Shown here piece by piece: positions 26,583-46,379 of a stretch of DNA of 64,000 bases. The notes beneath the pieces were generated by a model. That model was not told where the DNA came from, did no database searches, and was given only the letters and a program-made list of their open reading frames with translations. The stretch is taken from contig JBFMAK010000003.1 in assembly GCA_040755695.1 (NCBI GenBank), positions 1 through 64,000 of the forward strand, written 5' to 3'. Both the position numbers and the translations under genes were made by a program. This DNA is from Candidatus Diapherotrites archaeon (lineage in GTDB: Archaea > Iainarchaeota > Iainarchaeia > Iainarchaeales > 1-14-0-10-31-34). Positions within the stretch are counted from its first letter, which is position 1, and each line of letters starts with the position of its first letter.

Positions 26583-26856
26583 TAGCCCCGAGGAGATTCG
26601 AACTCCTGTCTCAGGGTCTCTCCCCCTTCTTTTCTTTCCAAAAGAAAAGAAGTGGTAAGCTATCCCAAGAAAAGAAAGGTTGGTTGCCCAAAAAAGAAAA
26701 GGGAGCTTAAATAATTTTTGAATTTTGCACAACTCTTCTTTTTGGAAAGCCAGCCAACCCTTTTTCTTTTGGATGGCCTGGAGACTTTTCTTTTTCGGGA
26801 AAAAGAAAAGTCTTAGGTCCAAAGCCCTGCATCCTTGGCCTCTAGACTACGGGGCT
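26583..26856 (-). tRNA. tRNA-Gln (UUG) with a ~200-nt intron
   Basis: Acceptor strands AGCCCCG/CGGGGCT with discriminator A close the gene. The anticodon stem is CAGGG/CCCTG and the loop C-T-TTG-G-A gives anticodon UUG. The exon break falls after base 37, the standard archaeal position; the intron is about 26618-26818. The intron begins with a 14-bp perfect hairpin (AGACTTTTCTTTTT / AAAAAGAAAAGTCT) and ends with another (CTTCTTTTCTTT / AAAGAAAAGAAG). It is far longer than usual archaeal tRNA introns and is homologous to the one in tRNA-Glu at 46198. Confidence 0.9.
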
Positions 26857-27008
26857 GTTTGTGATGCAATAAAAATTTGTTCTGCATACATTTAAATTGC
26901 TTTTCGTGGAATAGATTGTTATGGTTTCAAGAAGGGATTTACGGATTCTGCTGCAGGAATTTTAATTCTATTTCTAACGAATTGGTTAGCCATGAATTTG
27001 CTGGTTAT

Positions 27009-27080
27009 GGGAGGGTGGCGCAGTGGTAGCGCAATCGGCTGATAACCGATAGGTCATGGGTCCGAGTCCCATCCTTCCCA
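27009..27080 (+). tRNA. tRNA-Ile (GAU)
   Basis: A complete cloverleaf: acceptor GGGAGGG/CCTTCCC, D-arm GCGC...GCGC, anticodon stem ATCGG/CCGAT around CTGATAA (anticodon GAU), T-arm ATGGG/CCCAT with loop TCCGAGT. Two C of the CCA end follow. No intron. A T-run directly downstream may terminate it. Confidence 0.95.
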
Positions 27081-27168
27081 CCTTTTTTTATTTTTTGTTT
27101 CGTCGATTCACGTTTGGCTTGATTTTTATTTTTATTGCATTGACTTAATTTTCAGAGAGTTGGTTTTT

Positions 27169-27606
27169 TTGAGACTGTATCTTGATTCCAATGTCTTCAT
27201 TTCTCTTGTGCGCGAAGAAATCAACGGAAGCTTAAATATATTGTTCAAGGACACAGAGCTGTTTCTCTCGATTTGTTCAAAAAAGAATTTTTCATTGCTT
27301 CTTTCTTATTGGTTCTTTAAAGAAATAGAAAAATCAGTTTTTCTTCAAAAAGAGGAAGTGGTTGAATTACTGAAAAGTAATTATGCCGTTTTGATTCAAG
27401 AAATTAAGAGAGGAAAAGGATATTACCTTGAAATGAAAAATATAGCTAGAGAAACAGGAATTCGTTTTGGAGACGCTTTGCATATTGCAATAGCACTTGA
27501 CTCTAAGGCAGACTTAATTGTTTCCTGGAACAAAAAAGATTTCCTTAAAGCCAGAAGCCTGATAAATTGTTTGAACCCAAAAGAATTCATTGAGGAGTTC
27601 ACTTAA
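27169..27606 (+). CDS. PIN-domain toxin
   Basis: The 145-residue product shows PIN acidic positions (LYLDSNVFISLV, a Glu in FKEIEK, FGDALHIAIALD, IVSWNKKDF). PIN proteins are ribonucleases. TTG 27169 follows a GAGAGTTGGTTTTT leader shared with the PIN gene at 11680; a TTG three codons earlier is possible. It converges on an RHH gene with a 4-base overlap, repeating the arrangement at 11680-12358. Confidence 0.82.
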   Translation: MRLYLDSNVFISLVREEINGSLNILFKDTELFLSICSKKNFSLLLSYWFFKEIEKSVFLQKEEVVELLKSNYAVLIQEIKRGKGYYLEMKNIARETGIRFGDALHIAIALDSKADLIVSWNKKDFLKARSLINCLNPKEFIEEFT

Positions 27607-27875
27607 GCATATTTTAATGCCAGCTTATCTCTTTCTTCTTGTGTTAAGTGATGGTATCGTTTAATCTTTTTCCTGAGCTTTAATGTTGCCTTGTGAACTC
27701 TCTTCATCTCTTCCTCTAAACCCATCAGCTGAATTATCCTCTGCCTTTCGGCATCCCTCAAGAACTCGCTTTTGGAATGATAGGCTTCAGTTTTCTCTAT
27801 CGTCCTATCCACTAATTTAGCGAAGCCTGGCTCAGCAGAGAAACTCATTATTGTCTTTCCTTTAGAGTTAACCAT
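27603..27875 (-). CDS. Ribbon-helix-helix antitoxin-like protein
   Basis: ATG 27875 gives 90 residues. TIMSFSAEPGFAKLVDRTIE and SKSEFLRDAERQRI form an RHH fold; the C-terminal helix is charged (KRVHKATLKLRKKIKRYHHL). A perfect inverted repeat lies directly upstream of the start and is a likely autoregulatory operator. Convergent with the PIN gene. Confidence 0.75.
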   Translation of the reverse strand: MVNSKGKTIMSFSAEPGFAKLVDRTIEKTEAYHSKSEFLRDAERQRIIQLMGLEEEMKRVHKATLKLRKKIKRYHHLTQEERDKLALKYA

Positions 27876-27903
27876 AAAACAGTAATTCCATGAAAACTGT
27901 TTT
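27876..27903 (-). promoter_or_regulatory. Operator palindrome at the RHH start
   Basis: AAAACAGT (27876-27883) and ACTGTTTT (27896-27903) form a perfect 8-bp inverted repeat with a 12-base spacer, abutting the ATG and overlapping the expected transcription start; a TATA-like TTATTAAAA lies just upstream on the minus strand. This suits repression by the RHH protein itself. Confidence 0.6.
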
Positions 27904-27972
27904 AATAATATGCTATTAAAACCCAATAACTAATTAAAAAACAAAAAGAAAAAGAAAGAAAGGAATTGCTTT

Positions 27973-28422
27973 TTAAGTGCAGATTCCAATCAATGGCTTG
28001 TCGCCTTTCTGGGTTTTTCCTGCAATGCCAGGGCTGTCATAGGTTATTACTACATCAAAGCTGTATCTTGAACTTGAAGCGCAAGTCAAAGCTGCTGAAC
28101 CGTTTGCCGTCCAAGTGCTTCCACCTGCAACATTCTGGTCTGGTATAGTAAGAGCAGTTTCTCCAAGGCTTATTTCCTTTAATTCCATTCTCCCGGAAGT
28201 CATGTTCTGCAATACAATTGATTGGGCTGTCGAGCCGACCTTCCAGTCTGTAATGCTCCATGGGGCTGCTGCCGCCCAATAAGTTTTAGATTGCTGTTCG
28301 GAAATTCCTCCGCCTAATCCTGGAACCCAGCCCATTATGCCTACAACCACTAAGGCAATCACTATTACCACTGCAAGAATAATCAGGTACTCTGTTGTTC
28401 CTTGAGCTTTAAAGTTAAGCAT
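27973..28422 (-). CDS. Type IV pilin-like protein with class III signal peptide
   Basis: The 149 residues start with a class III signal (LNFKAQGTTEYLIILAVVIV): processing by an EppA-type peptidase would leave the QGTTEYL helix at the N-terminus. The rest is a small beta-rich domain ending in cysteines (LTCASSSRYS; GICT). It lies downstream of the secretion ATPase and platform genes and is the best candidate for the major pilin. Confidence 0.88.
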   Translation of the reverse strand: MLNFKAQGTTEYLIILAVVIVIALVVVGIMGWVPGLGGGISEQQSKTYWAAAAPWSITDWKVGSTAQSIVLQNMTSGRMELKEISLGETALTIPDQNVAGGSTWTANGSAALTCASSSRYSFDVVITYDSPGIAGKTQKGDKPLIGICT

Positions 28423-28511
28423 TCTTTAATTCCTCCTTTTCAATTTTATTACAATAAAAAACATTAATTGATTATAATAATTGTTTTAGGGTTTAAATTC
28501 CTTTGCTTTTT

Positions 28512-29531
28512 TCAACCCAAAACAGAAAGCAGCGAGGAAATAATTTCCTTGAACACAAAGAACAGTATGACTGAAGAGACAAGCATTGGAAGAAAATACT
28601 TCAATCCATTCTTTGTCTTGCCTTCTGCTATTACCCCTACAAAAATGCTTGCAAGCAAGGCGTTCCCTGCCAGTAGAATTAATGAAGCGTAGAACATGAA
28701 TTGAGTGGAAATATTAATTTTTGAGTTAAGGAATCCTGTTGCAAGGCCTGGAGTTGAAGAAAGGCCTGAGGAAGTATTCTGGGCCTGAATTGACTGGATC
28801 ATTGAAAGGAACTGCAATGAGATTGAAAGAAGCAATGGCGTTGCAATTACAATAATGAACGCAACAAAAATAATGTACATGCGGGTGCTTGAAACTAATT
28901 CCTTCTTCATTTCCTGTGTCTTGACTAAATCATCTGAACTTGACTCAAGAAGCCTTGTTATGTGGCCTCCGGAGATCATTCCTTGAACGAAAAAAGAAAC
29001 AAATTCTTTCAGGACCTTTGAATTAATCCTTTTCGCCAGTTCCCCCAAAGCTTCATTGAATGATTCTGTGCCTAAGCTCTTGGAGGTTGCAGCCTTGATT
29101 TCTTCGTTGAGCGGGCCAAACTCGTTTCTTGCGCTTGAACGGAAGGCAGCAAAAGGAGTCATGCCAGAGCGCAGGTTAGAAGAAAGCAATGAAAGGAAGT
29201 CAGGAAGGATTGCCTCAACCCTTTTAGTCCTGTCCTCAATTACATAATAAACGTGCAGGTAATACAGAACTGCAATCAAAACGAAAAAAATTATCGCAAA
29301 AAAAATTGAAAGAATTAATGGAACCAAAAAAGAGGCAAAGTCAATTAAGGCAAAGTATTTGAATAAAGTCCAAGGCAGAAGGAACCCAATAAAAGCAAAA
29401 AGAATTGCAACAAAAATTTTTTGGCCAAGCCATCCATCAAAGTCTTGAGTTGAGCCAGAGAAGTCATACAATTTTTTGGCCCACTCCATTCTCTTGCGCG
29501 GGAAGAGCCTGGAAAAAGAAGAATACTTCAT
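28512..29531 (-). CDS. Pilus assembly platform protein, TadC/ArlJ-like (T2SSF)
   Basis: A 339-residue membrane protein. The cytoplasmic T2SSF domain (about residues 100-220) has LPDFLSLLSSNLRSGMTPF and LNEALGELAKRI-like elements; three C-terminal and two N-terminal membrane segments flank it. It would form the membrane platform that the ATPase drives. It overlaps the second platform gene by ATGA. Confidence 0.9.
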   Translation of the reverse strand: MKYSSFSRLFPRKRMEWAKKLYDFSGSTQDFDGWLGQKIFVAILFAFIGFLLPWTLFKYFALIDFASFLVPLILSIFFAIIFFVLIAVLYYLHVYYVIEDRTKRVEAILPDFLSLLSSNLRSGMTPFAAFRSSARNEFGPLNEEIKAATSKSLGTESFNEALGELAKRINSKVLKEFVSFFVQGMISGGHITRLLESSSDDLVKTQEMKKELVSSTRMYIIFVAFIIVIATPLLLSISLQFLSMIQSIQAQNTSSGLSSTPGLATGFLNSKINISTQFMFYASLILLAGNALLASIFVGVIAEGKTKNGLKYFLPMLVSSVILFFVFKEIISSLLSVLG

Positions 29532-30421
29532 GAGACCATCACCCTTGGCACCCTGCTCTTAATGAATCCAATCAGGATTATTTGAACAATAAAAGCAAAA
29601 CCTATGATCATTGCAATATGAATTTCACCAATATTTGTTCCGCCGAAGGAAGAGAGAACAATAAGGAATGTAACGCCCAAAGTTGGAAGTGCTGCAGCCA
29701 ATAACATGTAAATCAGAATCCATAAATTTAGTTCAGCAGCATAATTCTTTATTGCCCTGAACTGGTTGTTATTAAGGGTCTCAACAACAGAAGAGACAGC
29801 AGAAGAAAGGCTTGCTCCGCTCTTCAGAGAAGACATCAACTGCCATGTTGTTTTCCTCAAGTAATCAGATTTAGTCCTTAAAGCCATCCTCTCGAAAGCC
29901 TTTAATTCAGAAACACCAGAAGAAATGTCTTGAACTAACAACTCCAATTCCTTTGACACTAAACCGTAAGAGCCCTTGCTTGCATTCTTTATTGCCTCAA
30001 AAAGCGAAACACCAGAAGAAACCTGAATTAAAATGCTCTTCAAAGCAAAAATCAGGTCCTGGTCTATTTCCGCTGCAATCTTTCCAGAAATAATTTTAGG
30101 ATAAAATAAATGTAAAAGCAAAAAAACAAGAAAGAAAGCAAAACCAATAATTAAATTTAATGGAAAGACGCCCTGCAGTGAAGCATTTTTTGCGAATAAA
30201 AGAACTGAAATCAAAGCAAAGAAAATTATTCCGTACAAGAGGGCGGAAAAAAATGAGAGAGTACAGTAGTCTTCTGCCCCCAATTCAATTCCAGCCTTGC
30301 TTAAGTCATATTTCAGACCGTAAAAGAGGGAAGAAATCCTTCTTCCAATGAAATTAAATCTTTTGAATTTCTCTCCTTTCTCTAAAGAAAAAAGCATGAA
30401 TTTAATCCTCATAACCACCAC
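29528..30421 (-). CDS. Pilus assembly platform protein, TadB/ArlJ-like (T2SSF)
   Basis: The 297 residues contain a T2SSF domain (LIFALKSILIQVSSGVSLFE; MSSLKSGASLSSAVSSV) between membrane helices near residues 50-105 and 225-290. Paired TadB/TadC genes are usual in Tad and many archaeal pili. It lies ten bases after the ATPase gene. Confidence 0.9.
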   Translation of the reverse strand: MVVMRIKFMLFSLEKGEKFKRFNFIGRRISSLFYGLKYDLSKAGIELGAEDYCTLSFFSALLYGIIFFALISVLLFAKNASLQGVFPLNLIIGFAFFLVFLLLHLFYPKIISGKIAAEIDQDLIFALKSILIQVSSGVSLFEAIKNASKGSYGLVSKELELLVQDISSGVSELKAFERMALRTKSDYLRKTTWQLMSSLKSGASLSSAVSSVVETLNNNQFRAIKNYAAELNLWILIYMLLAAALPTLGVTFLIVLSSFGGTNIGEIHIAMIIGFAFIVQIILIGFIKSRVPRVMVS

Positions 30422-30430
30422 AAAAAAAAA

Positions 30431-32128
30431 TTAAAGCTTTGAGAAAGCTCTGCCTTCAAAGGCAGCTTTTTTTATTGTCTCAGGCTCAGAATAAAACAAC
30501 TTCATTACATTGCCTACATCATTCAATTCAAACATTTTTTGCTCCAGCATCCATTCAAGAACCCTCTTCCTGTCCTCCAATTCAGAATTTATTTCCTGTT
30601 CAGTCATTCCTGTATGCAAGTTCAATTCACTGTAAAGCTTTGCAGGCTCATTCACCTTCTCCCATGCATCCTCTCTCGGCCTCCACCTGAAAATAGTGTT
30701 AACGCTCAATTGCCCTGGAGAAACACCAGACTCAATCTCTGATAGCTCAAAAGTCCTTCTCCTGTTAGTTTTCCTGTCCCTGTACTGCACTAGAACCAGA
30801 TGCAATGCTTCTACCTCCAAAGGAGGAATTTCAATTGGTGACTCTAACAACCTTCTGATTACTTGAGTGCCAGAGTCAGCGTGAATTGTGCTGTACACTG
30901 AATGGCCTGTGTGCATTGCCTCAAAGAGAACTTCAGCCTCCTTCCTCTGCCTCATTTCCCCTAAAACAATACGGTCAGGCCTCATTCTGAGAGAAGACAT
31001 CATCAAATCAAACATGCTTATCTCCCCTAATCCTTCAGGGTTAGCATTCCTTGTAGTCAAAGCAACCCAATTCCATTTAAGGTATTCGGGAAGCATGAGC
31101 TCCCTTACATCCTCAATAGTAATAATCCTGTGATAATTCGGAATCAGAGCACACAAAGTGTTTAAGGCAGAAGTCTTTCCTGAGGCTGTTGAACCTGCAA
31201 CCATCAAATTCATTTCGTACTGAATTGAAAGCCATAAGAGAGCAGCAATATCCGAATTCATTGTGTGCCTTTCAGGCTCAATAAAATCAATTACAGTCCA
31301 AGGCTTTCTTGCAAACTTCCTTATAGTAATAGTGTTCCCATAACTGGAAACAGGATAAAGTGTAGCATTCACCCTGTCGCCTGAAACAAGGTGAGCATCA
31401 AGGATTGGAGCAAGATTTGTTATCTCCCTTCCAACCTTTCTCCCTATCTGCGAGCTGTAATTGAATATTTCCTCTTCAGTGAACAATTGAAGATTGGACT
31501 TCATCCAGCCGAACTCTCTGTGGTACACTGCAATCGGGGTAGCAGAAGAATTAATTACAATTTCCTCCAGGAAATTGTCCGCCATCAACAACTCCATGTC
31601 CCCTATGCCGTACATTGAGTGAATCATGTAGCCTGAAAGCTCGTTCAATAATAATTCGCCCTGAAAATAGTCTCCCAACTCTTTTTTTATTGTATAAAAG
31701 AATTTTTCCTTTAAGGCCTTTGCCCTTTTTTCGTCTGTAATCTCCTCTACCTCTACAGGAATCTTCCTTGCAATATGCTCCTTTATCTCCTCTAAGAACG
31801 CTTCAGTGTAAGGGCACGGCCTGTCAATGAAAATGTCATAGAAAGGCCTTCTATCAGAAGAATCCTCAATTATCTTCACTTCAGCTGAAATGAAGTCGCT
31901 TGAAACCCTGTAAGAAGAAAGAATATTTCCCTGCACCTTCTTCTCCTTGCGCCATTCAAGCTTCTGCTTCAATTTAATGTGGGGCTTGGAGAAAATATTC
32001 GAAGGATACATTAATTCAAGCAAACCCTTCTTCTCTAAAACCTTTGCTGTCTTCTCTATTAATTCCCTCTTCCAGTCCAGCTTTTTCTCTATCTCTTCCA
32101 GTTCAAGTGCCTTGCCTTTCTCGAGCAA
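30431..32128 (-). CDS. Secretion/pilus ATPase, TadA/VirB11/ArlI family
   Basis: The 565-residue cytoplasmic ATPase shows Walker A (AGSTASGKTSALNTL), the Asp box (IITIEDVREL), Walker B (MRPDRIVLGEMR) and the His box (MHTGHSVYSTIHADS). The N-terminal 50 residues look like a winged helix whose first helix (KITELAELLEKG) begins upstream of TTG 32128; the frame is open to a TAG at about 32168-32170 and an ATT at 32158 sits five bases from GGTGGGAG, so the real start may be this ATT. Confidence 0.94.
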   Translation of the reverse strand: MLEKGKALELEEIEKKLDWKRELIEKTAKVLEKKGLLELMYPSNIFSKPHIKLKQKLEWRKEKKVQGNILSSYRVSSDFISAEVKIIEDSSDRRPFYDIFIDRPCPYTEAFLEEIKEHIARKIPVEVEEITDEKRAKALKEKFFYTIKKELGDYFQGELLLNELSGYMIHSMYGIGDMELLMADNFLEEIVINSSATPIAVYHREFGWMKSNLQLFTEEEIFNYSSQIGRKVGREITNLAPILDAHLVSGDRVNATLYPVSSYGNTITIRKFARKPWTVIDFIEPERHTMNSDIAALLWLSIQYEMNLMVAGSTASGKTSALNTLCALIPNYHRIITIEDVRELMLPEYLKWNWVALTTRNANPEGLGEISMFDLMMSSLRMRPDRIVLGEMRQRKEAEVLFEAMHTGHSVYSTIHADSGTQVIRRLLESPIEIPPLEVEALHLVLVQYRDRKTNRRRTFELSEIESGVSPGQLSVNTIFRWRPREDAWEKVNEPAKLYSELNLHTGMTEQEINSELEDRKRVLEWMLEQKMFELNDVGNVMKLFYSEPETIKKAAFEGRAFSKL

Positions 32129-32248
32129 TTCAGCCAGTTCAGTTATCTTAGTCTTAATTCTCCCACCCTAAATGCTTCGCGCTATAAAATTATTCAATTA
32201 TTCTTAATAAACCTAATGCAGAAAAAGAAAAAAATAAATCAAGGCGAA

Positions 32249-32282
32249 ACATTTAAATAAACTTATTATATCAATTGATATA
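32249..32282 (+). promoter_or_regulatory. Promoter and 16-bp operator of a toxin-antitoxin-like module
   Basis: A TATA box ACATTTAAATAAAC (32249-32262) is followed by a perfect 16-bp palindrome TATATCAATTGATATA (32267-32282) ending 10 bases before the next ATG. Its place at the transcription start suits autoregulation. Confidence 0.6.
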
Positions 32283-32292
32283 GTGCTGTTTT

Positions 32293-32583
32293 ATGGCTTC
32301 AACTCTGACTGTATTTAAGCCTTCTAATATTCTTCGCTATCCAAGGCTGGATACTGTTTTAATGGTGGAAGAGGCAATCCATAAAGCAAAAGAGTATCCC
32401 ACGAAGGCTGAATTGTACAGGAGCCTTCCTAAAAAGACCATGTACCAAACATTCAAACTAATTCTTGACTATCTGGAGTACTCCGGCAAGATTTTCATCG
32501 CCAAAGACGGATCAATAATTTGGATCTGGGACCCCGAAGGAGTCAGAAAATTGCTGGACAAAAAGCATTTGGTGGTTAGGTGA
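32293..32583 (+). CDS. Winged-helix-like protein, probable antitoxin of a RelE-type module
   Basis: The 96 residues contain a probable winged helix (TKAELYRSLPKKTMYQTFKL; ILDYLEYSGKIFIAKDGSII). A gene in this position, directly upstream of and overlapping a RelE-like toxin frame and behind a palindromic operator, is most simply an antitoxin. It is oriented against the surrounding pilus genes. Confidence 0.65.
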   Translation: MASTLTVFKPSNILRYPRLDTVLMVEEAIHKAKEYPTKAELYRSLPKKTMYQTFKLILDYLEYSGKIFIAKDGSIIWIWDPEGVRKLLDKKHLVVR

Positions 32584-32925
32584 AAAAGCATGACAACAGA
32601 GAAAAAATTGTTATTTTCATCGATGACATAACCAAGGAATCTTTTGATAAGCTTAAAACAGGAAAGTTTGAAGACAGACAACTTTACGAGTTTATTGATA
32701 AGGCAATTGATGACTTAAAAGAAAACCCTTTTGTGGGAATCCATATTCCCAAGAAAAATTGGCCAAAAGAATACATTCAAAAATATGGAATCAACAATCT
32801 CTGGAAATATGATTTGCCTAACGGGAAGATTAATTTATACAATTAAAGGCACTGAAATAGAAATACTTTCAGTAATACTGGACTGGTTTGAACACAAAGA
32901 ATACGAAAGAAAATTCAAGTATTAA
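32580..32925 (+). pseudogene. RelE/ParE-type toxin gene broken by a frameshift
   Basis: GTG 32580 opens IVIFIDDITKESFDKLK ... DDLKENPFVGIHIPK ... YGINNLWKYDLPNG and then runs out of frame at a TAA (32844-32846). The next frame supplies exactly the missing end: RLIYTIKGTEIEILSVILDW and FEHKEYERKFKY. In intact relatives the join reads LPN-x-WRLIYSIKG, so a one- or two-base indel near 32821-32830 has broken the gene. RelE-type toxins cut mRNA on the ribosome; this copy should be inactive unless frameshifting occurs. Confidence 0.75.
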
Positions 32926-32939
32926 ATTCTACTATTGAG

Positions 32940-33363: not shown

Positions 33364-33373
33364 TACTCAATCA

Positions 33374-33712: not shown

Positions 33713-33748
33713 TTTATTCACAACCTTATCTTATCATGCCTTTGTTGT

Positions 33749-38960: not shown

Positions 38961-39063
38961 TTTAACCAACAAAAAAAATCATTCCATTATAATTAGGGGA
39001 AAGTGCTTAATAATTTTATTCACTGAAAGAAGAATACAAAGAAAAAAAATGAAAGAAAAAGAA

Positions 39064-39315: not shown

Positions 39316-39330
39316 CCCCCTTTATTTTCA

Positions 39331-40059
39331 TTAGAATACTTCCACATCAGCATAAATTTTAATTCCATCCTGCTCAAATGTAATAGCACACAATTTGTTT
39401 GTATGCCTTGTGCCCCTCATTTTGAGGATTTCCATGCTGTGCACTCTCACGTCCTTCTGCTCTTTCTTTTCATAGTAAAGGGAAATAACAGCATCGGCAA
39501 GAAAGCCAACAGAGCCTCGCTCAGACTCTGCTTCCTGTGGGGTCATCTCAGAAATCACAATTGAAGTGCAACCCCATTTCCTGAGCATGTCAAAGAAAGC
39601 AAGAATTGACTCCCTTTGCTGGTACTCGTCCTTGAACAAAAGAGAATAAGCAGTAATTGAATCAATCACCAGTCTTTTGGCATTAATTGCCTTTATTGCA
39701 TCCCTTATAGGGCCACCGCCCTGCTCCAACAGCTTTCCGACTTGATGAGGCTTATACTCCAGAACAGAAAACAATTTCTTTTTCTCTAACTCCTCGAAAT
39801 TCCAGCCGTACTCTTCATTATGCCTGTACAAGGAGTCCTTTGATTCTTCAAAGCTTATCAGGATTCCGGCCTCATTATAATTTTTTGCTCCATAATACAA
39901 GAACTGCAATCCAAAAGTAGTCTTTCCAGTTCCAGCACTGCCTGTAACCAATATTACCGAACCTTTCTCGAATCCTCCTTCAATCAATTCATCCAAACCA
40001 AAAATTCCTGTTGAAACCCTTTCAATTGACTCCTTCTTCTTATTTAATTCCCCTTCCAT
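39331..40059 (-). CDS. KaiC-like ATPase
   Basis: A 242-residue single-domain RecA/KaiC ATPase: Walker A (VTGSAGTGKTTFGLQFL), Walker B (KRLVIDSITAYSLL) and the KaiC-type end (ILKMRGTRHTNKLCAITFEQ). The archaellum protein ArlH and the Rad55/KaiC-like regulators belong to this family. Its place between the pilus operon and another KaiC-like pair suggests a role in pilus control. Confidence 0.92.
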   Translation of the reverse strand: MEGELNKKKESIERVSTGIFGLDELIEGGFEKGSVILVTGSAGTGKTTFGLQFLYYGAKNYNEAGILISFEESKDSLYRHNEEYGWNFEELEKKKLFSVLEYKPHQVGKLLEQGGGPIRDAIKAINAKRLVIDSITAYSLLFKDEYQQRESILAFFDMLRKWGCTSIVISEMTPQEAESERGSVGFLADAVISLYYEKKEQKDVRVHSMEILKMRGTRHTNKLCAITFEQDGIKIYADVEVF

Positions 40060-40134
40060 AAAACCACAAAAAAAACTTGAATTTTAATTAATTAAGAGAA
40101 AGGTTAATATTAATCTTTTGCCTAATCTAAGGAT

Positions 40135-40770
40135 ATGACCATAAAAGAATACCTTCAATCAAAACAGAACATTGTGCTCATAATACCAAACGAAAGATAT
40201 CCTGATGCAGTAATTTCAATTGCAAAAGAACTCCTTTCACTGGAAGGAGACTTTCTTTACGTCAGCATAAACAAGCCCTGCCAAGACATACTTAAACAAT
40301 TGGACAAAAGGCAGACAGAGAAGTTCTACTGCGTTGACTGCATAAGCAGGAGCTTTTCTCCTTCCCAGGCAACAAAAATAGAACAAGAAAAAATAGCGCA
40401 AAGATTCTACTTCATAGACAACCCTCACTCCCTCACGCAATTAGGCCTGGGAATAACAAAAATGCTTGAAAACAAGAAAATAAAACAAATGCTGTTCGAT
40501 TCAATTTCAACCCTCCTGATCTACAATGAAGAAAAAGAGGTCATGAAATTCATTCATCATGTAATGAGCAAGGTAAGGGAGACAGAATGCAGGGCAGTAT
40601 TCACTTCACTCAAAGAAGACGTGAGCTCAATGCTCGTAAAAGAAATAACACTCTTCGCAGACGCAATAATAGAATACAAAGAAACAGAGAAAAGAAAATT
40701 TGGCGGCCCAGAAATAAAAGATACTCAGACAAAAAAGAAAATGGAAGACTTCGAAGAAATAAAACTGTAA
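40135..40770 (+). CDS. KaiC/RecA-like protein lacking a Walker A motif
   Basis: The 211 residues have the KaiC strand order (IVLIIPNERYPDAVISIA; FLYVSINKPC; KQMLFDSISTLLIYN; RAVFTSLKED) but no P-loop. It is a paralogue of the protein at 33749. It sits divergently from one P-loop KaiC gene and convergently with the other, with a Lys/Glu-rich tail. Confidence 0.75.
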   Translation: MTIKEYLQSKQNIVLIIPNERYPDAVISIAKELLSLEGDFLYVSINKPCQDILKQLDKRQTEKFYCVDCISRSFSPSQATKIEQEKIAQRFYFIDNPHSLTQLGLGITKMLENKKIKQMLFDSISTLLIYNEEKEVMKFIHHVMSKVRETECRAVFTSLKEDVSSMLVKEITLFADAIIEYKETEKRKFGGPEIKDTQTKKKMEDFEEIKL

Positions 40771-40781
40771 AAAAAAGAGAA

Positions 40782-41507
40782 TTAAAGGTTGATTCCTTCC
40801 CAAGGGATTTCTTCCTTGGGCCTGATTGTAATTCCTTTATCATTTATTTCGAACGGGTGAGGGCTCATTGACTGCTGGGTGCCCCTCATTTTTCTCACGA
40901 AAATAGACCTGTGAGGCGGATGAAAATAAAGCACTATAACACCATCACACACGAATTCCTCCACTCCAAAGGCACTGAAGGTGTTCTTGTCCCCTTTTGT
41001 CTCTGTTGTAAGAACTGTAGTGCAATCCAATTTCTTCAACCCATCAGTAAACATGAATAAAGTCTTCCTCATTGCAGCTGAGCCCTTAATCCACATTGCA
41101 AGAGCAGTAGTAGAATCTATTACAAGCCTTTGGGCTCCAATCCTTTCAACGTACTCGGTGATAATATTCAGTTCCTCCATTACCTCATCCTCTATATTCT
41201 CTGCCTCTTTTTCAGCCAAATTCAATTTATAGATTTTAAACAAATTCCTGTCCTGCAATCTTTTAATGTCCCACCTGAAATTCTCCATGTCCCAAGTAAT
41301 ATTCTTCAAATTGGTTTCCAAGGTAACATACAATCCCGACTCATTCAGTTTTGCTGCTCCATAATACAAGAACTGCAAGGTAAAAATTGTCTTTCCTGTT
41401 CCAGAGCCACCTGAGATAAGAATTGAGGAGCCCTTAGGCAAGCCTCCCTCAATCAATTCATCCAAACCATCAATACCTGACGGAATCCTCTTCATGCCCC
41501 ACACCAA
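40782..41507 (-). CDS. KaiC-like ATPase
   Basis: A 241-residue paralogue of the ATPase at 39331, with Walker A (ISGGSGTGKTIFTLQFL), Walker B (QRLVIDSTTALAMW) and the closing VRKMRGTQQSMSPHPFEI. It converges with the P-loop-less gene, 11 bases apart. The pair of active and inactive KaiC-like proteins is repeated across the locus. Confidence 0.92.
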   Translation of the reverse strand: MVWGMKRIPSGIDGLDELIEGGLPKGSSILISGGSGTGKTIFTLQFLYYGAAKLNESGLYVTLETNLKNITWDMENFRWDIKRLQDRNLFKIYKLNLAEKEAENIEDEVMEELNIITEYVERIGAQRLVIDSTTALAMWIKGSAAMRKTLFMFTDGLKKLDCTTVLTTETKGDKNTFSAFGVEEFVCDGVIVLYFHPPHRSIFVRKMRGTQQSMSPHPFEINDKGITIRPKEEIPWEGINL

Positions 41508-41594
41508 ACCAATTATTTAATTATTTTTAATTAATGCCATAAAAAATACAGTAAAATAATTAATAAACCTTGCAGTCAAAAAAAGAGGAAAAAG

Positions 41595-41668
41595 AAAAAA
41601 AACCAGTCAGGTCGCCCATCTCTCACCATCTTCCCTTCGGAATCTGAGTCATCGTCGTTCTTCATCCC
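41595..41668 (-). ncRNA. Candidate small RNA unit
   Basis: This GC-richer block in an AT-rich gap starts about 30 bases after a TATA-like run and ends in a T-rich tract on the minus strand. It contains GATGA-like and CTGA-like boxes with short complementary ends (CCGG / CTGG), a weak match to box C/D guide RNA. The open frame in it is not convincing. The rest of 41508-41859 holds tandem hairpins (see repeat at 41769). Confidence 0.25.
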
Positions 41669-41768
41669 GGCAAAATAACTATGTAAAGAAAAAAATTAAA
41701 AGAAAGAAGTTTGCTTAGCGCAAGAGAAAAGCTTAAAAATAACTTAATGCCAATAAATAACTGCCTTT

Positions 41769-41831
41769 AAAACTTTTTCTCCGGGAAAAGTTTTATCAAA
41801 AAAAACTTTTAAAAAAAGTTTTATCAAAAAC
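41769..41831. repeat. Tandem AT-rich hairpins, dispersed element copy 1
   Basis: Two hairpins in a row: AAAACTTTT (41769-41777) with AAAAGTTTT (41786-41794), then AAAACTTTT (41802-41810) with AAAAGTTTT (41814-41822), each followed by ATCAAAAA. The second unit recurs almost exactly at 49695-49729 in the rRNA spacer. Confidence 0.6.
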
Positions 41832-41859
41832 CAGCAGAAAAAATTTGGGGTGATGTAAA

Positions 41860-42123
41860 GTGAAATTCAAATACTGTCCTTCCTGCGGTTCAATGCAGTT
41901 GAAGTACAACGGCCAAAGCCTTGTGTGCACTAAATGCAATTATGCAGGCCAAATGAAAGAAGATGCAATGGACAAAATCAACGCCTTTGTAACGAGCGTG
42001 AAAAGGGGTAACAGCTCTCAGGTAATGGTGGAGAGAACGCCAAGGGAATTCGGGCAACAGATAATTCCAGTAAAAGAGAAATTAAAAAAGTTTTCTGGTT
42101 CAGAGGACTTCGAGATACTCTAA
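41860..42123 (+). CDS. Zinc-ribbon protein related to RPB9/TFS N-terminal domain
   Basis: GTG 41860 behind GGGTGATG gives 87 residues. The N-terminal ribbon CPSCGSMQLKYNGQSLVCTK resembles the first zinc ribbon of archaeal TFS (transcript cleavage factor) and RPB9. The C-terminal ribbon of TFS with its catalytic acidic pair is missing, so it is not a complete TFS. Possibly a transcription-associated protein. Confidence 0.7.
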   Translation: MKFKYCPSCGSMQLKYNGQSLVCTKCNYAGQMKEDAMDKINAFVTSVKRGNSSQVMVERTPREFGQQIIPVKEKLKKFSGSEDFEIL

Positions 42124-42224
42124 AAAAAGAGGAAAAAGAAATCACCTTGAAAGCGCTCTGAACAACTATTTTTATTAATTGGTTCAATAATTAAATTATT
42201 AAATCAAGTTCGTAAGGTGAAACC

Positions 42225-42422
42225 ATGGGAATAGGAATAGACGAAAAATACATTAAATTAAGCAGGCAGAAAGACAAGTTCAGGAAAAAGGATGAACCGG
42301 AAAAAGAATTCTCCTGCCTGAACTGCGGGAAGGTCCTCACAAACAAGGGAAATTATTTGTATTACAGGCGCTTCTGCTCAGAGCAATGCCTTGAAGAATA
42401 CAAGAACACAGCAGGAATTTAA
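42225..42422 (+). CDS. Small zinc-finger protein
   Basis: The 65-residue product has CLNCGK and FCSEQCLEEY, a four-cysteine treble-clef-like finger, after a charged N-terminus. ATG 42225 follows AAGGTGAAACC. TATA-like TTAAATTATTAAA lies about 35 bases upstream. Function unknown. Confidence 0.7.
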   Translation: MGIGIDEKYIKLSRQKDKFRKKDEPEKEFSCLNCGKVLTNKGNYLYYRRFCSEQCLEEYKNTAGI

Positions 42423-42454
42423 TCCAGTTTTCTACTTAAAAATTGGGGTCGTAA

Positions 42455-43399
42455 ATGAGCGAAAAAAAGAGAAGGTCAAGAGAACGCACGAGAAAGGAAC
42501 TGCTTCTCTACTATAAGAGCAAATACCCAGAAATAATTCCCGACCTTGTTTCAGGCTCAAGAATGTTCCCCCCAGAAATAAAAAAGATATTAAAGAAACC
42601 AGCCAAGGAAATGAGCTTCGAAGAAAAAGTAAAAGAAATAAGAAAAATAGAACCAAACAAAGAAAAAGTAGAAAATTACATCAAGGAATACTACAAACTT
42701 AGGATAGAAGCACTCAAAAAAATAGCCCCACACAGCAAAGGGCGCCTGGAAAATTTTGATGTTAAAATTGAGAAGAAAGATGGAAGATATGTTGTCAGGA
42801 AAAAAAGAGATATGCAAAAAATTGCTCAAATTTTAGAGCCGAGAATTGAATCAGGCATTCTGCTCAAGCACATTCACGACAAAAAAACAAGCACTGGCGA
42901 TTACTTCACAGATTTATACGGTGCACTAGTAGCAGATATAAGAAATATAAAAGAAATTATAACAGAAAGAGAAAAAGGCCTGCCAAGAAAAAGAGGCTTA
43001 GAAGAAATAAGGAAAATAGCTGAAAAGGTAAAAGTGCAAAGCGAAGGACAACTCACCGGAAAAGAAAAAAAATTGTTGGGTGAATATGAAACAGCTAATA
43101 AAAGCGGGAAGAAAATCCCTGAAAGTGAGATGAGCAAAATAAATGAAGTGCTTAGAAAAAAAGAAAAGCTGGAAAAAATAGGTTTAACACGAGAAGAAAT
43201 GGAGAGATATGCCGCCTATAGAATACGAGAAAGTGAGGCAAAAAAGGGTTGGGTGACAGCTGAAAAATTAAGGAAAAGACTCCGGCGCAAAAGAAGAATC
43301 TTTTTGAGTGATAAAGATAGTATTATCAGAAGAATTCAAACAACCTCTTTTTTGCAGCCAAAAAATTTAAGGCACACTAGAAAACTTAGAATGCACTAA
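42455..43399 (+). CDS. Long charged helical protein of unknown function
   Basis: A 314-residue basic protein, over a third Lys/Arg/Glu, mostly helical, with a slightly less biased middle (KHIHDKKTSTGDYFTDLYGA). It starts behind GGTCGTAA close to the zinc-finger gene. The other Lys-rich orphan proteins in the window look like members of the same general class rather than clear homologues. Confidence 0.6.
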   Translation: MSEKKRRSRERTRKELLLYYKSKYPEIIPDLVSGSRMFPPEIKKILKKPAKEMSFEEKVKEIRKIEPNKEKVENYIKEYYKLRIEALKKIAPHSKGRLENFDVKIEKKDGRYVVRKKRDMQKIAQILEPRIESGILLKHIHDKKTSTGDYFTDLYGALVADIRNIKEIITEREKGLPRKRGLEEIRKIAEKVKVQSEGQLTGKEKKLLGEYETANKSGKKIPESEMSKINEVLRKKEKLEKIGLTREEMERYAAYRIRESEAKKGWVTAEKLRKRLRRKRRIFLSDKDSIIRRIQTTSFLQPKNLRHTRKLRMH

Positions 43400-43419
43400 A
43401 AGACAATTTACTGCAATTT

Positions 43420-44070
43420 TCACGTTTTCTTCAAAGGCACGAAAACAAAGTATCCTGGCAAAGGAATTATCTTCCTGATCTTGCCTTTGGATTTATCTAT
43501 TACCTGCATTTGCTGGCTCCAATGGTCTCCAACAGGGGCAACAATTTTTCCGCCTTCACTTAACTGCTCAACCAAAGCTTCAGGCACATCGCCTGCTGCA
43601 GCGCTCAAGAGAATCCTGTCAAAAGGCATTCTTTCACTTAAACCTTTAGTGCCGTCACCCAAGAAAAGCTCTGCATTCCTGCAGCCCTGCAGTTTCAGGT
43701 TCTCTTTTGCCTGCTCAAACAATTCCTTCACCAACTCAATTCCAAAAACCTTTCCTTTAGGCCCAACAATCTCTGAGAGCAGAGCACATACATAGCCTGA
43801 GCCAGAGCCAACCTCAAGCACCTTCATTCCCTCTCCTGCATCAAGCAATTCAAGCATTACAGCAATAGTGTAAGGCTGGCTTATTGTCTGATTGAATCCA
43901 ATAGGGAAAGCGTTATCAGAGTAAGCGTATTCAGTTAAATGAGAAGGCATGAAGAGCTCTCTCTTCACTTTAAGGAAAGCTTTTTCAATCAAAAGAGACT
44001 TTATTACATCAGATTCTTTGAGGTAGCGCACTAAATTATTTCTCTTCAACTCAAATTCTCTTTCATTCAT
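43420..44070 (-). CDS. pcm: Protein-L-isoaspartate O-methyltransferase
   Basis: It methylates isoaspartyl residues so that damaged proteins can be repaired. The 216 residues show GFNQTISQPYTIAVMLELL, the SAM motif VLEVGSGSGYVCALL, and GGKIVAPVGDHW. It overlaps the HTH regulator by four bases. Confidence 0.96.
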   Translation of the reverse strand: MNEREFELKRNNLVRYLKESDVIKSLLIEKAFLKVKRELFMPSHLTEYAYSDNAFPIGFNQTISQPYTIAVMLELLDAGEGMKVLEVGSGSGYVCALLSEIVGPKGKVFGIELVKELFEQAKENLKLQGCRNAELFLGDGTKGLSERMPFDRILLSAAAGDVPEALVEQLSEGGKIVAPVGDHWSQQMQVIDKSKGKIRKIIPLPGYFVFVPLKKT

Positions 44071-44999
44071 TTCTTCTCCCTTCTCTTTATTTCTGCAAGC
44101 AATTCATTAATCCTGCTGTAAGAATCCAATTCTTCCTCCTGAATTACTGGAGTACCTGAAATCCTTTCAATCTTGTATTTTTTTGTAATTATAAGGGAAT
44201 GGGAATCAAAGACAGCCTTTGCCTTCTCTAACACCAAAGCCTTCTTCTTTAATTCCTGCTTCTCTTTTCCCTTGTCTATTAAAAGAAATTCCTTTTTCGA
44301 GCCCACAGCCCTAAAAGGCGAATGCTGAAGCTCAAAAACATCCAAGCCTAAATAGTGAATCTTCTCAATTGATTCGTCCTTAGGCATTGAATCAAAAGGC
44401 ATTCTCTTCTCGCGCTCCAACTGGTCCTGAAAGAAAGAGTCAAGGAGATTCTTTTCCAAAACAAGGTCTACGCCCAAAGCCTTCTCCAGCTTCCTTGCAG
44501 TCCCAATGCTTGTCGAATGCCCGTGCTCGAACCTGTACAAAGACTCCTTTGTAATTCCAACTTTTCTAGCCAATTCCTCAAGGGACAAATCCTCTTTCGC
44601 CCTGCCCTCCCTTAATTTATTGTAATCCAATTCAACAATTGTTTTGCCCTTGAAATGCCTTACAGAAGGAGCAAAAGAATCCAGAACAGAAGAAAAAGTA
44701 TTAAAGGACATTACAGGAATAGAATGCCTTTCATAAATTTCTCCCTTCTTTAATTCGCCTAATCTTGTTTTCTCTCCAATAACCAAAGCCATTGCATTAA
44801 ATGTTTTGCCCAGCTTTAAAAGCTCCAAAGCCTGCTCTGGCCTTACGGCATCAATATTGGAGTAAACCTTCACAATCAAAGTGAAATTGTTCCTTTTGGC
44901 AATCAAATCAAAACAGGAATTGTAATCAAAAAAGCTGTTCACAGTAAAGCCTTTCCCGTTAAGAAAAGACACTAACTTGAATAAAACTACTTCCCTCAT
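44067..44999 (-). CDS. Archaeal HTH transcriptional regulator (Cro/CI-type)
   Basis: ATG 44999 (MREVVLFKLVSFL) gives 310 residues. The N-terminal ~115 residues are nuclease-fold-like (FDLIAKRNNFTLIVKVYSNI), followed by a Cro/CI helix-turn-helix near 125-180 (LSLEELARKVGITKESLYRF) and a C-terminal domain. This is the arrangement of the conserved archaeal putative HTH regulators (UPF-type). It has its own TATA (attgatttaaatttt) close upstream. Confidence 0.88.
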   Translation of the reverse strand: MREVVLFKLVSFLNGKGFTVNSFFDYNSCFDLIAKRNNFTLIVKVYSNIDAVRPEQALELLKLGKTFNAMALVIGEKTRLGELKKGEIYERHSIPVMSFNTFSSVLDSFAPSVRHFKGKTIVELDYNKLREGRAKEDLSLEELARKVGITKESLYRFEHGHSTSIGTARKLEKALGVDLVLEKNLLDSFFQDQLEREKRMPFDSMPKDESIEKIHYLGLDVFELQHSPFRAVGSKKEFLLIDKGKEKQELKKKALVLEKAKAVFDSHSLIITKKYKIERISGTPVIQEEELDSYSRINELLAEIKRREKK

Positions 45000-45025
45000 A
45001 CAAAAAATTGTGCTCAAACAAAAAT

Positions 45026-45847
45026 TTAAATCAATGCGACAAGAAAGGCGATCATTCCAGCCAGCATTCCAAGCTTGGAGTAAAGCTGAGAGCTCCTGAA
45101 TTCTTTTTCCAGGAGAAGCCTGAAAGCCCAGACAAACAAAAGAAAGGAAGCAACCATCAAAAAGAAGTAATAAAAATTAAAGAAAATCCCGGCAACAAAA
45201 GGATAAAAGCCTACAGCAACAGCAAGCAAATACAAGAACAAAGCAAAGAAAGCCAGAGGCCTCAATGAGAAAAATGAACCTAAAGAAGTCTTTAATCCTC
45301 TGTCTCCCTTCAAGTCCTCCAAGTCCTTTGTTATCTCCCTGCCTAAATTGGCAAGGAAAGCAGAAATAGCCAGAATTACAGGCAGGCAAAGGCTTTCACC
45401 TAAAAGGCCCCCGTAAATTATAGTGAAAGCAACACTGAAAGCAATCACATAATTTCCTATGAACTTAAATCTTCCAAGGAAAGCAGAATAAAAAATCAAG
45501 AGCAAAGCAAAAAACACTGCAAGCCAGAAATGCAATGAACCAATAAAATAAGAAAAGCCAATTCCAACCAAAAACAAAGCAATAGAATAAACCAATGAAT
45601 TAAAGTAGCCTACTGCCTTCCTTGGAAGAGGCCTGTGCCTCTTAATTATCCTGTCGATTTCAACATCAAAAAAGTCATTTATTGCCTGGCCTCCAGCACA
45701 CACAAAGAACACAGCAAGCATTGAATACAGCAAAGGCAAGTCAAAATAAAAAGAATTCATTGAAAGGCTGAAACCCAAGAATGCTCCAAAAGCCGCAATC
45801 AGGCAATTAAAAGGCCTTATGATTTTAATATAATCCCTTAAGCTCAT
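45026..45847 (-). CDS. UbiA prenyltransferase, probable digeranylgeranylglyceryl phosphate synthase
   Basis: It would add the second geranylgeranyl chain in archaeal ether-lipid synthesis. The 273 residues have about eight membrane segments, the first prenyl-diphosphate motif AINDFFDVEIDRIIKRHRPL and the second ITKDLEDLKGDRG. The Pro-Leu-Pro after the first motif is typical of the archaeal lipid enzymes. It starts 7 bases after the ribosomal protein gene. Confidence 0.92.
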   Translation of the reverse strand: MSLRDYIKIIRPFNCLIAAFGAFLGFSLSMNSFYFDLPLLYSMLAVFFVCAGGQAINDFFDVEIDRIIKRHRPLPRKAVGYFNSLVYSIALFLVGIGFSYFIGSLHFWLAVFFALLLIFYSAFLGRFKFIGNYVIAFSVAFTIIYGGLLGESLCLPVILAISAFLANLGREITKDLEDLKGDRGLKTSLGSFFSLRPLAFFALFLYLLAVAVGFYPFVAGIFFNFYYFFLMVASFLLFVWAFRLLLEKEFRSSQLYSKLGMLAGMIAFLVALI

Positions 45848-45853
45848 AAAGCA

Positions 45854-46018
45854 TTACACTTTCTTTACAGCCTTCCTCTTCAACCTCAATTTCTTGGAAT
45901 TGCATTTCCTGCACTTGGAAGGCCTCTTTCCGGGAGTAGCCCTGTTCTTTGCATTGCACCTCATGCAAATCCACACATTGCTGTAAAGCCTTGAATCCGC
46001 CTGCTCAAACCTTGCCAT
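45854..46018 (-). CDS. rpl40e: Ribosomal protein eL40
   Basis: A 54-residue protein with the eL40 pattern: MARFEQADSRLYSNVWICMR then C-N-A-K-N-R and a second CRKC pair, forming a four-cysteine zinc ribbon of the large subunit, with a basic C-terminus. ATG 46018 follows AGGTGATG at the usual spacing. It is the first gene of the run to pcm. Confidence 0.92.
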   Translation of the reverse strand: MARFEQADSRLYSNVWICMRCNAKNRATPGKRPSKCRKCNSKKLRLKRKAVKKV

Positions 46019-46054
46019 TACATCACCTGACAGAAAAACAAAAAACGATTACAA

Positions 46055-46071
46055 TCAAATTAAATAATTAT
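46055..46071 (-). promoter_or_regulatory. Promoter of the eL40 operon
   Basis: Minus strand AATAATTATTTAATTTG is a TATA element about 40 bases upstream of the eL40 start codon, in a gap shared with tRNA-Glu on the other strand. Confidence 0.5.
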
Positions 46072-46122
46072 TCCCCCCCAAATATTAAAAAACCAGTTGT
46101 AAAACACTGGGAAAGGCTTTAT

Positions 46123-46379
46123 GCTCCGATAGTGTAGCCGGCCAAAAAATCAAGAAATTATTATTTTTGGTTTTGCCGATAGCACTCAGGCCTTTCACCC
46201 TAAGCCTTTTCTTTTTCCCGAAAAAGAAAAGTCTACGGTCTATCCAAAAGAAAAAGGGTTTGCTTCAGGCAAATTTATTATGGTTTTTTTCTTTTGGGGC
46301 AACTTACCACTTTTCTTTTTTTCTAAAAAAGAAAAGGGGCAGTAAGCCTGTAACCCGGGTTCAAATCCCGGTCGGAGCA
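46123..46379 (+). tRNA. tRNA-Glu (UUC) with two introns
   Basis: Acceptor GCTCCGA/TCGGAGC with A73, T-arm CCCGG/CCGGG and anticodon stem CAGGC/GCCTG around C-T-TTC-A-A (anticodon UUC). Intron 1 lies in the D-loop (about 46146-46179, ~34 nt) and pairs CCAAAAA with TTTTTGG and CGGC with GCCG. Intron 2 (46198-46344, 147 nt) starts after base 37 and is homologous to the tRNA-Gln intron, with the same 5' hairpin (CTTTTCTTTTT / AAAAAGAAAAG) and a 3' hairpin. Without these insertions the cloverleaf is normal. Confidence 0.88.

Follow-up and report, generated by a model that had tools for sequence, protein, structure and literature searches.

The window (the whole stretch of 64 000 nucleotides that was analysed) contains a tRNA-Gln(TTG) gene (26583–26856, minus strand), located using ARAGORN with introns, and a tRNA-Glu(TTC) gene (46123–46379, plus strand); both were delimited by their borders and spliced tRNA. 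tRNA-Gln is interrupted at position 37/38 by an intron of 201 nt (26618–26818, minus strand), bounded by a BHB with a complete stem (5/5), a complete central helix (4/4) and two 3-nt bulges. This position is consistent with the intronless tRNA-Gln of a relative (G003). tRNA-Glu has two introns. The first, of 147 nt, also lies at position 37/38 within a BHB (46198–46344, plus strand; stem CAGGC/GCCTG, 5/5, and helix CTTT/GCAG, 3/4 pairs, read by eye). The second is an intron-like insertion of 36 nt in the D loop (46145–46180, plus strand), with a BHB shape formed by a CGGC/GCCG helix and bulges CAA and ATA (pairing by eye). Once the D-loop insertion was removed, the tRNA was accepted by ARAGORN, which gave spliced products of 73 nt for tRNA-Gln(ttg) and 74 nt for tRNA-Glu(ttc). 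The 37/38 coordinates proposed in the sequence-only reading proved base-exact by BHB geometry and ARAGORN. Judged from their sequences, both are canonical 37/38 archaeal BHB introns with predicted splicing. The genome has one splicing endonuclease match, an open frame of 197 aa. A group I intron was rejected: model RF00028 had no match in the tRNA-Gln intron and none above its cut-off genome-wide (best 11 bits, elsewhere). An Rfam search of the tRNA-Gln intron returned miRNA and snoRNA family matches, all below their cut-offs.

The sequence-only reading had held the two introns to be homologous on the basis of blocks shared in the same order, and these blocks are present. The two introns align locally with a score of 102; among 1000 dinucleotide-shuffled pairs the mean was 22.8 (sd 3.4) and the highest score 37. 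A detector of hairpin, linker and purine arm found four matches in the 64-kb window, all inside the two introns, and none when the window was dinucleotide-shuffled 10 times.

Each 37/38 intron contains a head-to-head pair of one repeat unit. In tRNA-Gln, the forward unit (AAGAC-Y-R-TCTCCAGGCCATCC-R'; 26759–26814, minus strand; model R1, E 3.4e-12) and the inverted unit at the 3′ end of the intron (Y-R-TGGTAAGCTATCCC-R'; 26622–26677, plus strand; model R1, E 2.2e-15) are separated by an extra pyrimidine/linker unit. In tRNA-Glu, the forward unit (AAGCC-Y-R-TCTACGGTCTATCC-R'; 46202–46257, plus strand; model R1, E 6.0e-13) is paired with an inverted unit (GCCCC-Y-R-TGGTAAGTTGCCCC-R'; 46285–46340, minus strand; model R1, E 3.6e-16), which is the best R1 match of the genome and was itself part of the training set of the model.

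Architecture of the repeat unit

The unit is about 56 nt long and consists, from 5′ to 3′, of a foot, a pyrimidine arm (Y), a loop, a purine arm (R), a linker and a second purine arm (R'). Y pairs with R in a hairpin, and a nearly invariant C.T mismatch marks its lower stem. Both sides varied in 10/10 pairs of the hairpin, and the covariation score was 0.412, compared with 0.19–0.26 in slid controls. At offset 3 of the lower stem, G.T wobbles were counted 21 times and A.C twice, a bias suggesting that pairing takes place within the sense single strand, be it RNA or DNA. The linkers recur in sequence among copies and measure 10–15 nt (12 nt in 45/90 and 14 nt in 33/90 elements). The linker and wobble figures, the placement of the relatives' copies and one conditional count given below come from this 90-element set, obtained from 93 elements by removing three rows without a matching third arm (L017, L095, L097).

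R' mirrors R in 88 of the 93 elements (permuted mean 25.8, maximum 43), which were collected with a detector requiring the hairpin, the linker and at least eight purines beginning with A, mirror order not being demanded. Base by base, 39 of the 93 fitted a mirror better, two fitted a direct repeat better and 52 were tied. Among 104 model matches, eight were excluded for having no hairpin under the rules of the script; the rule held in 89 of the 96 comparable ones, and five of the seven exceptions stem from the script terminating R at a G that follows a T. A direct-repeat third arm, with which the hairpin would swap its purine strand, was rejected: in the unfiltered set, 37 elements have an unequal run order, of which 33 were mirror and none direct. 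R' as Watson–Crick partner of the inverted copy is possible in paired introns and was likewise rejected, as copies without a detected partner also mirror (74/76, a figure conditional on the 90-element set having been filtered for a matching third arm).

The unit thus has the sequence features of a class II intrastrand triplex motif, namely Y, a complementary R and a third arm mirroring R. Its linker is longer than the loops of 1–6 nt used in the ITxF search for such motifs. On sequence grounds, the three arms could stack as a class II intrastrand triplex (R'.R-Y).

Copies and insertion sites in the genome and its relatives

Model R1 gave 31 strong copies in the genome (matches up to E 1.5e-5; weaker ones include reverse-strand hairpin echoes): 19 in 15 tRNA introns, seven at tRNA 3′ ends and five elsewhere, a distribution to be read with the training of the model on tRNA-intron-derived copies, which favours that context. 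tRNA genes with 60 nt downstream make up 8.3 of 1303 kb. The seven trailer copies lie 0–4 nt past the tRNA 3′ ends and are all in sense orientation, as are 14/19 intron copies; the five antisense ones are the 3′ halves of paired introns. The tRNA-Gln intron and that of a tRNA-Arg(TCT) gene on another contig are 80.6% identical over 165 aligned columns. ARAGORN made isotype errors in intron-containing genes, and the BHB reading gave Pro(TGG) at C1:393957, Asp(GTC) at C2:28294 and Cys(GCA) at C1:197097.

Among 15 introns of the genome with an exon-defined register, a set that leaves out tRNA-Glu(TTC), 12 had at least 3/4 central pairs and two inner pairs, where 0.6 is expected from shuffled introns. 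The same held for 19/26 introns of relatives (0.9 expected). This shuffle-controlled test drew on 19/23 own rows and 28 distinct rows from relatives. A best-register scan found a BHB register in 21/23 own rows, several of them implausible (Glu-TTC, Lys, Phe and a Thr in L027), and in 27/30 rows from relatives (two loci counted twice).

At E <= 1e-5 the repeat was found in 42/75 genomes of the same order and in 0/12 of other orders; at the looser E <= 0.01, 44/53 genomes had a match. With 87 genomes of the phylum searched, the repeat is so far confined to one order of this DPANN-type, Diapherotrites-like phylum. At the relatives' loci, 32/61 copies lie outside both tRNA introns and trailers, and three copies lie 1–2 nt from tRNA 5′ ends. 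Of the 37 copies located neither in tRNA introns nor in trailers, 8 lie about 1–5 nt past the stop of an ORF on the same strand. One relatives' copy (L091) was called as antisense and unpaired within a tRNA intron; the tRNA call there is doubtful. Since the unit also occurs at tRNA 3′ ends, at 5′ ends and after ORF stops, it is best described as a dispersed repeat, turned into an intron where its landing site can be spliced.

Occupied and empty orthologous sites, as expected of a mobile repeat, were found at the tRNA-Gln locus (G000–G003) and at a 23S rRNA site. Beside tRNA-Ile(GAT), tRNA-Gln of the sister genus is intronless in G003 and has an unrelated short intron in G001 and G002 (where ARAGORN called it tRNA-Glu), whereas the genome studied here has the 201-nt intron. 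The likeness of the Gln and Arg(TCT) introns and these occupied and empty sites bear out the proposal that the introns are homologous and structured and have spread. The 23S rRNA gene carries an insertion of 71–72 nt (52486–52556, plus strand; model R1, E 4.7e-5), whose arms resemble those of the element and whose junction is BHB-like (TTCA/TGAA helix, bulges CAA and TTA, by eye). G015 carries an AAGCC-type insertion at the matching site (BHB helix TCCA/TGGA, by eye). G003 and G004 have no insertion at the site, and the two halves of the 23S query abut in G008, G014, G031, G045 and G065. The 23S insertion is a degenerate copy of the repeat that is probably spliced; by eye, BHB splicing would leave a surplus of two nucleotides in the product in both G000 and G015. 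The sequence-only reading had not covered the forward and inverted unit per intron, the D-loop insertion, the 23S insertion or the copies at other tRNA genes.

Spread and persistence of the repeat

That the repeat has spread is well supported. The account that we favour, with a probability of about 0.6, is that of a dispersed mobile repeat with triplex-capable arms that forms composite introns where its landing is tolerated by splicing. The Gln and Glu introns would be composite copies of this short repeat, which would spread within genomes to tRNA genes. Inside tRNA and rRNA genes, copies would persist where the splicing endonuclease can remove them: the inner helix that follows the 5′ splice site would come from the foot of the repeat, and the BHB would be completed by pairing between the final bases of the intron and the anticodon loop of that tRNA. 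The remaining copies would occupy tRNA ends and intergenic spacers, where additional RNA is either trimmed off or does no harm. The BHBs are presumed to be cut in vivo and the triplex to form, and the repeat may be mobile DNA moved by an enzyme acting on a folded single strand. Holder et al. 2015 (PMC4666352) state that RNA cannot form purine-motif triplexes, so that a triplex in the orientation dominant at tRNAs could only be DNA. More tentatively, and with some doubt, the intrastrand triple helix may be the conserved working structure of an archaeal mobile element, Y, R and R' being kept matched by selection because the enzyme recognizes the folded single-stranded triplex, and the element seeding tRNA and rRNA introns at sites that the endonuclease can clear.

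It is unlikely that the copies are instead a functional RNA or DNA element (e.g. a 3′-end, termination or processing signal) kept by selection in introns, in spacers and at tRNA ends, rather than a selfish repeat. The tight spacing to tRNA 3′ ends and, in 8/37 other copies, to ORF stops would suit such an element, as would the strong covariation of the arms, and pyrimidine runs could serve archaeal termination. However, a trailer copy is present at only 7/45 recognized tRNA genes, tRNA-Gln of the sister genus lacks the repeat, the repeat is unmatched at E <= 1e-5 in 33/75 genomes of the order (the looser threshold giving the 44/53 above) and a terminator within an intron would be harmful.

Spread at the RNA level was considered rather improbable. 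Here, excised and possibly circular introns or hairpin RNAs would enter tRNA precursors anew, through either reverse splicing or an RtcB-type ligation at splice sites and tRNA ends, and DNA copies produced by reverse transcription would then recombine into the gene. The copies coincide exactly with positions where RNA is cut (the 5′ splice site, tRNA 3′ and 5′ ends and the rRNA BHB), every trailer copy is sense and the covariation is of the single-strand type, yet a DNA element filtered by selection predicts an identical pattern. Neither the inverted halves nor the intergenic copies (5/31 in the genome; 29/61 in relatives, outside introns, trailers and 5′-end copies) are simply explained. The present data fit DNA-level and RNA-level movement alike. 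In the sequence-only reading, reverse splicing or gene conversion was the suggested route by which a mobile structured intron spreads; spread and structure are supported here, and the restriction to introns and that particular route are not.

It is highly unlikely that the repeat is a MITE-like, non-autonomous derivative of an IS200/IS605 element with a Y1 transposase, mobilized in trans. The foot hairpin with its fixed mismatch presumably resembles the IS200/IS605 group hairpins, and the genome has five Y1 transposase matches. The repeat nevertheless does not track Y1, which was matched in 15/46 genomes searched and not in G002, G003, G008, G017 or G031, each with 5–14 repeat matches (E <= 1e-5); Y1 was rejected as the driver. 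A viral vehicle was set aside after two IUPAC patterns gave no match in viral contigs, weak evidence since only exact pattern matches count. It is scarcely credible that the similarity reflects chance or convergence of low-complexity, AT-rich sequence, or that the introns are old, unrelated and vertically inherited: the arms are simple purine and pyrimidine runs, but chance AT-rich similarity is refuted by the shuffles (102 against at most 37; four detector matches against none), and the recurring linkers, lower-stem covariation and empty sites also speak against it.

Relation to known systems

MITE and REP-type palindromic repeats are short, non-coding, dispersed, hairpin-forming and nested into each other. 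The repeat shares these properties and differs in its mirror third arm and its strong concentration at tRNA genes; a linked transposase was not found in the Y1 search of 46 genomes. In Thermoproteales, transposed BHB tRNA introns were described by Fujishima et al. 2010, as cited in passages of PMC4090602, PMC4033280 and PMC4731332. Similar introns in different tRNAs are reported there (PMC4090602, PMC4033280), so that the premise of the sequence-only reading, that archaeal tRNA introns are unrelated between tRNAs, is not general. As described in those passages, the Thermoproteales introns resemble ours: related sequences recur in different tRNAs of a single archaeal order, the junctions are BHBs, non-canonical positions are also occupied and introns have been gained. 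In contrast to what they describe, the repeat also occurs outside introns (tRNA ends, spacers), forms head-to-head pairs and has a hairpin with a mirror third arm; it belongs to a different archaeal group, with a single endonuclease match as opposed to the heterotetramer named for Thermoproteus. In Caldiarchaeum, a mobile element disrupts tRNA-Thr (Sugahara et al. 2012, PMC3293823). According to the account given there, that case likewise ties tRNA intron gain to a mobile element, with heterogeneity between close relatives, but involves a 1.8-kb sequence with a predicted recombinase, compared with a gene-free unit of about 56 nt here.

The bacterial class II intrastrand triplex motifs BoxC, PIT and TM_ECO (Holder et al. 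2015, PMC4666352) share with the repeat, as set out in that source, the order Y, loop, R, loop and a purine third arm that mirrors R; they too are multicopy, patchily distributed among relatives and sometimes present as inverted pairs. The present repeat differs from them in being A-rich rather than G/C-rich, archaeal and located in tRNA and rRNA introns and at tRNA ends, and in its lower stem and its longer second loop of recurring sequence (the search of Holder allowed loops of 1–6 nt).

For archaeal tRNA introns, the cited portions of PMC4090602 and PMC4033280 report transposition with the vehicle missing. In this small-genome archaeon, a hairpin-forming repeat lies in two tRNA introns and at many other tRNA genes. 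As a unit it can be defined by its boundaries, its copies and its occupied and empty sites in related genomes, and it supplies many introns of one genome. The mirror rule, which can be tested with short oligonucleotides, hints from comparative data at possible selection for a triplex-type fold across many copies.

Structure of the repeat and its mirrored arms

The introns of tRNA-Gln(TTG) (201 nt, 26618-26818, minus strand) and tRNA-Glu(TTC) (147 nt, 46198-46344, plus strand) lay exactly where the sequence-only reading had placed them, and their proposed homology was upheld (pairwise score 102 vs a maximum of 37 over 1000 dinucleotide-shuffled pairs). Normal tRNAs were obtained once both introns had been excised in silico. 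In tRNA-Glu(TTC) the D loop is also interrupted, by 36 nt (46145-46180) that form an AT-rich hairpin with its own bulge-helix-bulge (BHB) shape as paired by eye; this insertion was read as a second intron. The same reading had considered related introns unusual; this surprise is only partly new, since different tRNAs of Thermoproteales are already known to carry similar introns (cited in PMC4090602 and PMC4033280).

The window is positions 1-64000 of contig C3 of its genome (1.30 Mb, 42 contigs, completeness 99.85%). Among named genomes, a UbiA-like protein of the window was best matched by a Candidatus Diapherotrites MAG (39% identity), and Diapherotrites and Micrarchaeota took the top seven places, so that the archaeon is probably a DPANN member of this group. 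The two introns were used as queries against their own genome and matched 20 and 36 places. Reading of the matched sequences gave a single unit, in which a foot (AAGCC, GGACCC, CTGCCCC or TGCCC) is followed by pyrimidine arm Y, a short loop, purine arm R, a linker and then another purine arm, R'. In long introns, one unit in forward orientation precedes one in inverted orientation, and some trailing copies carry tandem extra linker-R units (locus L017). A search model of the repeat, R1, was trained on 24 copies. Among 104 R1 hits (101 distinct rows), two-sided changes were found at 10/10 hairpin pairs and the covariation score was 0.412 (0.19-0.26 in slid controls). The stem continues below the Y/R tract beyond a mismatch (C.T in 80/90 copies, C.C in 7/90), after which the next pair is C-G in 61/90 and G-C in 15/90. 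A different repeat (TTTCAAAGCAAAGCTTTGAAA / TTTCAAGCAAAGCTTGAAA type) was seen nested in or beside copies of the main one (L042 850-1080, minus strand; L016 around 826-850; L041; L010).

R' is the mirror image of R and not a second copy of it. The number of adenines from the linker to the first G was the same in R' and R in 88/93 elements; random reassignment of R' arms gave a mean of 25.8 and a maximum of 43 matches of 93 (10 000 trials). In the 104 R1 hits, R and R' agreed in 89 of the 96 comparable (permuted maximum 45). Where the first two runs are unequal (n = 37), the order was mirrored in 33 elements and direct in none, over nine run patterns, which are a safer measure than the raw counts because copies share descent and are not independent events. 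Y, R and R' therefore covary. By the triplet rules given in Holder 2015 (PMC4666352), mirror order is required if a purine third strand is to lie antiparallel on the Y-R hairpin. A hairpin with a purine-strand swap was rejected: direct R' order would fit it, and this was seen in 0/37 asymmetric elements.

Positions of the copies and splicing

Strong matches were found at 31 places of the own genome: 19 in introns of 15 tRNA genes, seven as trailers, 0-4 nt past a tRNA 3' end, and five elsewhere. The stretches taken from this genome contained 45 recognisable tRNA genes, of which 24 had an intron call. All seven trailers were sense; the intron copies were sense in 14 cases and antisense in five, the latter being 3' halves of paired introns. 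Relatives' loci, picked from the best R1 hits, held 61 copies (27 in tRNA introns, two trailers, 32 neither). Three of these 32 (L075, L100, L113) lie 1-2 nt from a tRNA 5' end, antisense to the tRNA, as the inverted counterpart of trailers. A lone, partnerless antisense copy at L091 was called in a tRNA intron, the tRNA call itself being doubtful. Of the 37 copies outside tRNA introns and trailers in the two sets (own genome and relatives' loci), eight begin about 1-5 nt past a same-strand ORF stop, and inverted copies at L072, L079 and L080 end 4-13 nt ahead of an ORF start (mechanical ORFs). From these positions and orientations, the hairpin foot therefore tends to adjoin functional sequence, the forward copy standing behind it and the inverted copy in front.

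At L057 (relative G045), an inverted copy was noted just upstream of an ORF resembling elongation factor 2, as read by sequence. An orphan copy at L018 (around 994-1080, minus strand) directly follows a seeming tRNA-gene 3' remnant (CCACCGGGCCCG); perhaps the tRNA was lost and the trailer repeat retained. A further palindromic repeat, GGTATCGGAAC-N-GTTCTGAT, prefers sites of the same kind as the main one. It occurs at 49244-49267 and 49564-49587 (minus strand) and at L034:818, L031:1898, L013:1398, L015:1217, L139:1041 and L093:983. In the rRNA operon one copy lies just past 16S rRNA and another directly adjoins the 3' end of tRNA-Ala; the repeat was also seen at the tRNA-Leu(GAG) end, upstream of two tRNA-Ser genes and within introns of the own tRNA-Gly(CCC) and G002 tRNA-Gln, with a near match in G001.

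For the BHB test, registers were set by the exons alone and rows without a register (4/19 own, 2/28 of relatives) were left out. At least 3/4 central-helix pairs plus two inner pairs were formed by 12/15 own introns (0.6 expected from shuffled introns) and 19/26 introns of relatives (0.9 expected). The inner helix is commonly formed by the repeat foot, which starts beside the 5' splice site; the bases pairing with the anticodon loop are located at the intron 3' end and vary between tRNAs. The splicing-endonuclease family had one match in the own genome, an open frame of 197 aa, a size suggestive of the homotetrameric type.

A 71-72-nt insertion with degenerate arms (52486-52556; R1 E = 4.7e-5) lies within the 23S gene (49940-53013), near the peptidyl-transferase region, presumably in the H89 loop. 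Twelve relatives were searched: in G015 the identical place is occupied by a clear copy of AAGCC type, the query halves abut without insertion in seven (G003, G004, G008, G014, G031, G045, G065), G017 gave a partial match only and G001, G002 and G025 gave no 23S match. A BHB-shaped junction was drawn by eye (helix TTCA/TGAA in the window, TCCA/TGGA in G015). Splicing here is a proposal, since the product would retain two extra nucleotides.

Spread and possible mode of movement

Spread of the introns, as suggested by the sequence-only reading, was supported. At E <= 1e-5, R1 matched 42 of the 87 genomes searched, all of the phylum: 42/75 in the own order and 0/12 in other orders. At E <= 0.01, 44/53 genomes of the order sample were matched, many of them by no more than two weak hits. 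Inside families the repeat occurs patchily, as expected from gain and loss of a repeat. In the divergent tRNA-Gln/tRNA-Ile(GAT) pair, the window tRNA-Gln has the 201-nt composite intron, that of G003 is intronless, and those of G001 and G002 each hold a short one from a different palindromic family (49 nt according to ARAGORN). Own genes with repeat introns have intronless, possibly non-orthologous, counterparts for tRNA-Lys(CTT) (G002, G003) and for tRNA-Glu(CTC) and tRNA-Asn (G002); one tRNA-Asn(GTT) of the own genome likewise lacks an intron. The own tRNA-Gln and tRNA-Arg(TCT) introns are 80.6% identical over 165 common columns.

The main repeat is most likely mobile, non-coding DNA. A serious competing explanation is an RNA route, with religation at RNA ends, favoured by the location of copies at RNA cut sites. 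An RNA triplex in the orientation that prevails at tRNAs would have to be of the purine motif, in which, according to Holder 2015 (PMC4666352), RNA forms no triplexes. Y1 (IS200/IS605-type) transposases were rejected as mover, their distribution across the 46 genomes searched failing to track the repeat.

By titles and abstract openings of the matches listed, most subscription journals being outside the scope, no description was found of the main repeat, of tRNA introns holding mirror-armed repeats or of introns in the tRNA genes of Diapherotrites/Iainarchaeota. Transposed tRNA introns are known, as are triplex-type repeats in bacteria (Holder 2015, PMC4666352); the combination of features appears to be a variation on these, new within the literature covered. 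As a mobile DNA repeat, the unit would possibly move as a folded single strand, and its copies in tRNA and rRNA genes probably persist because splicing removes them.
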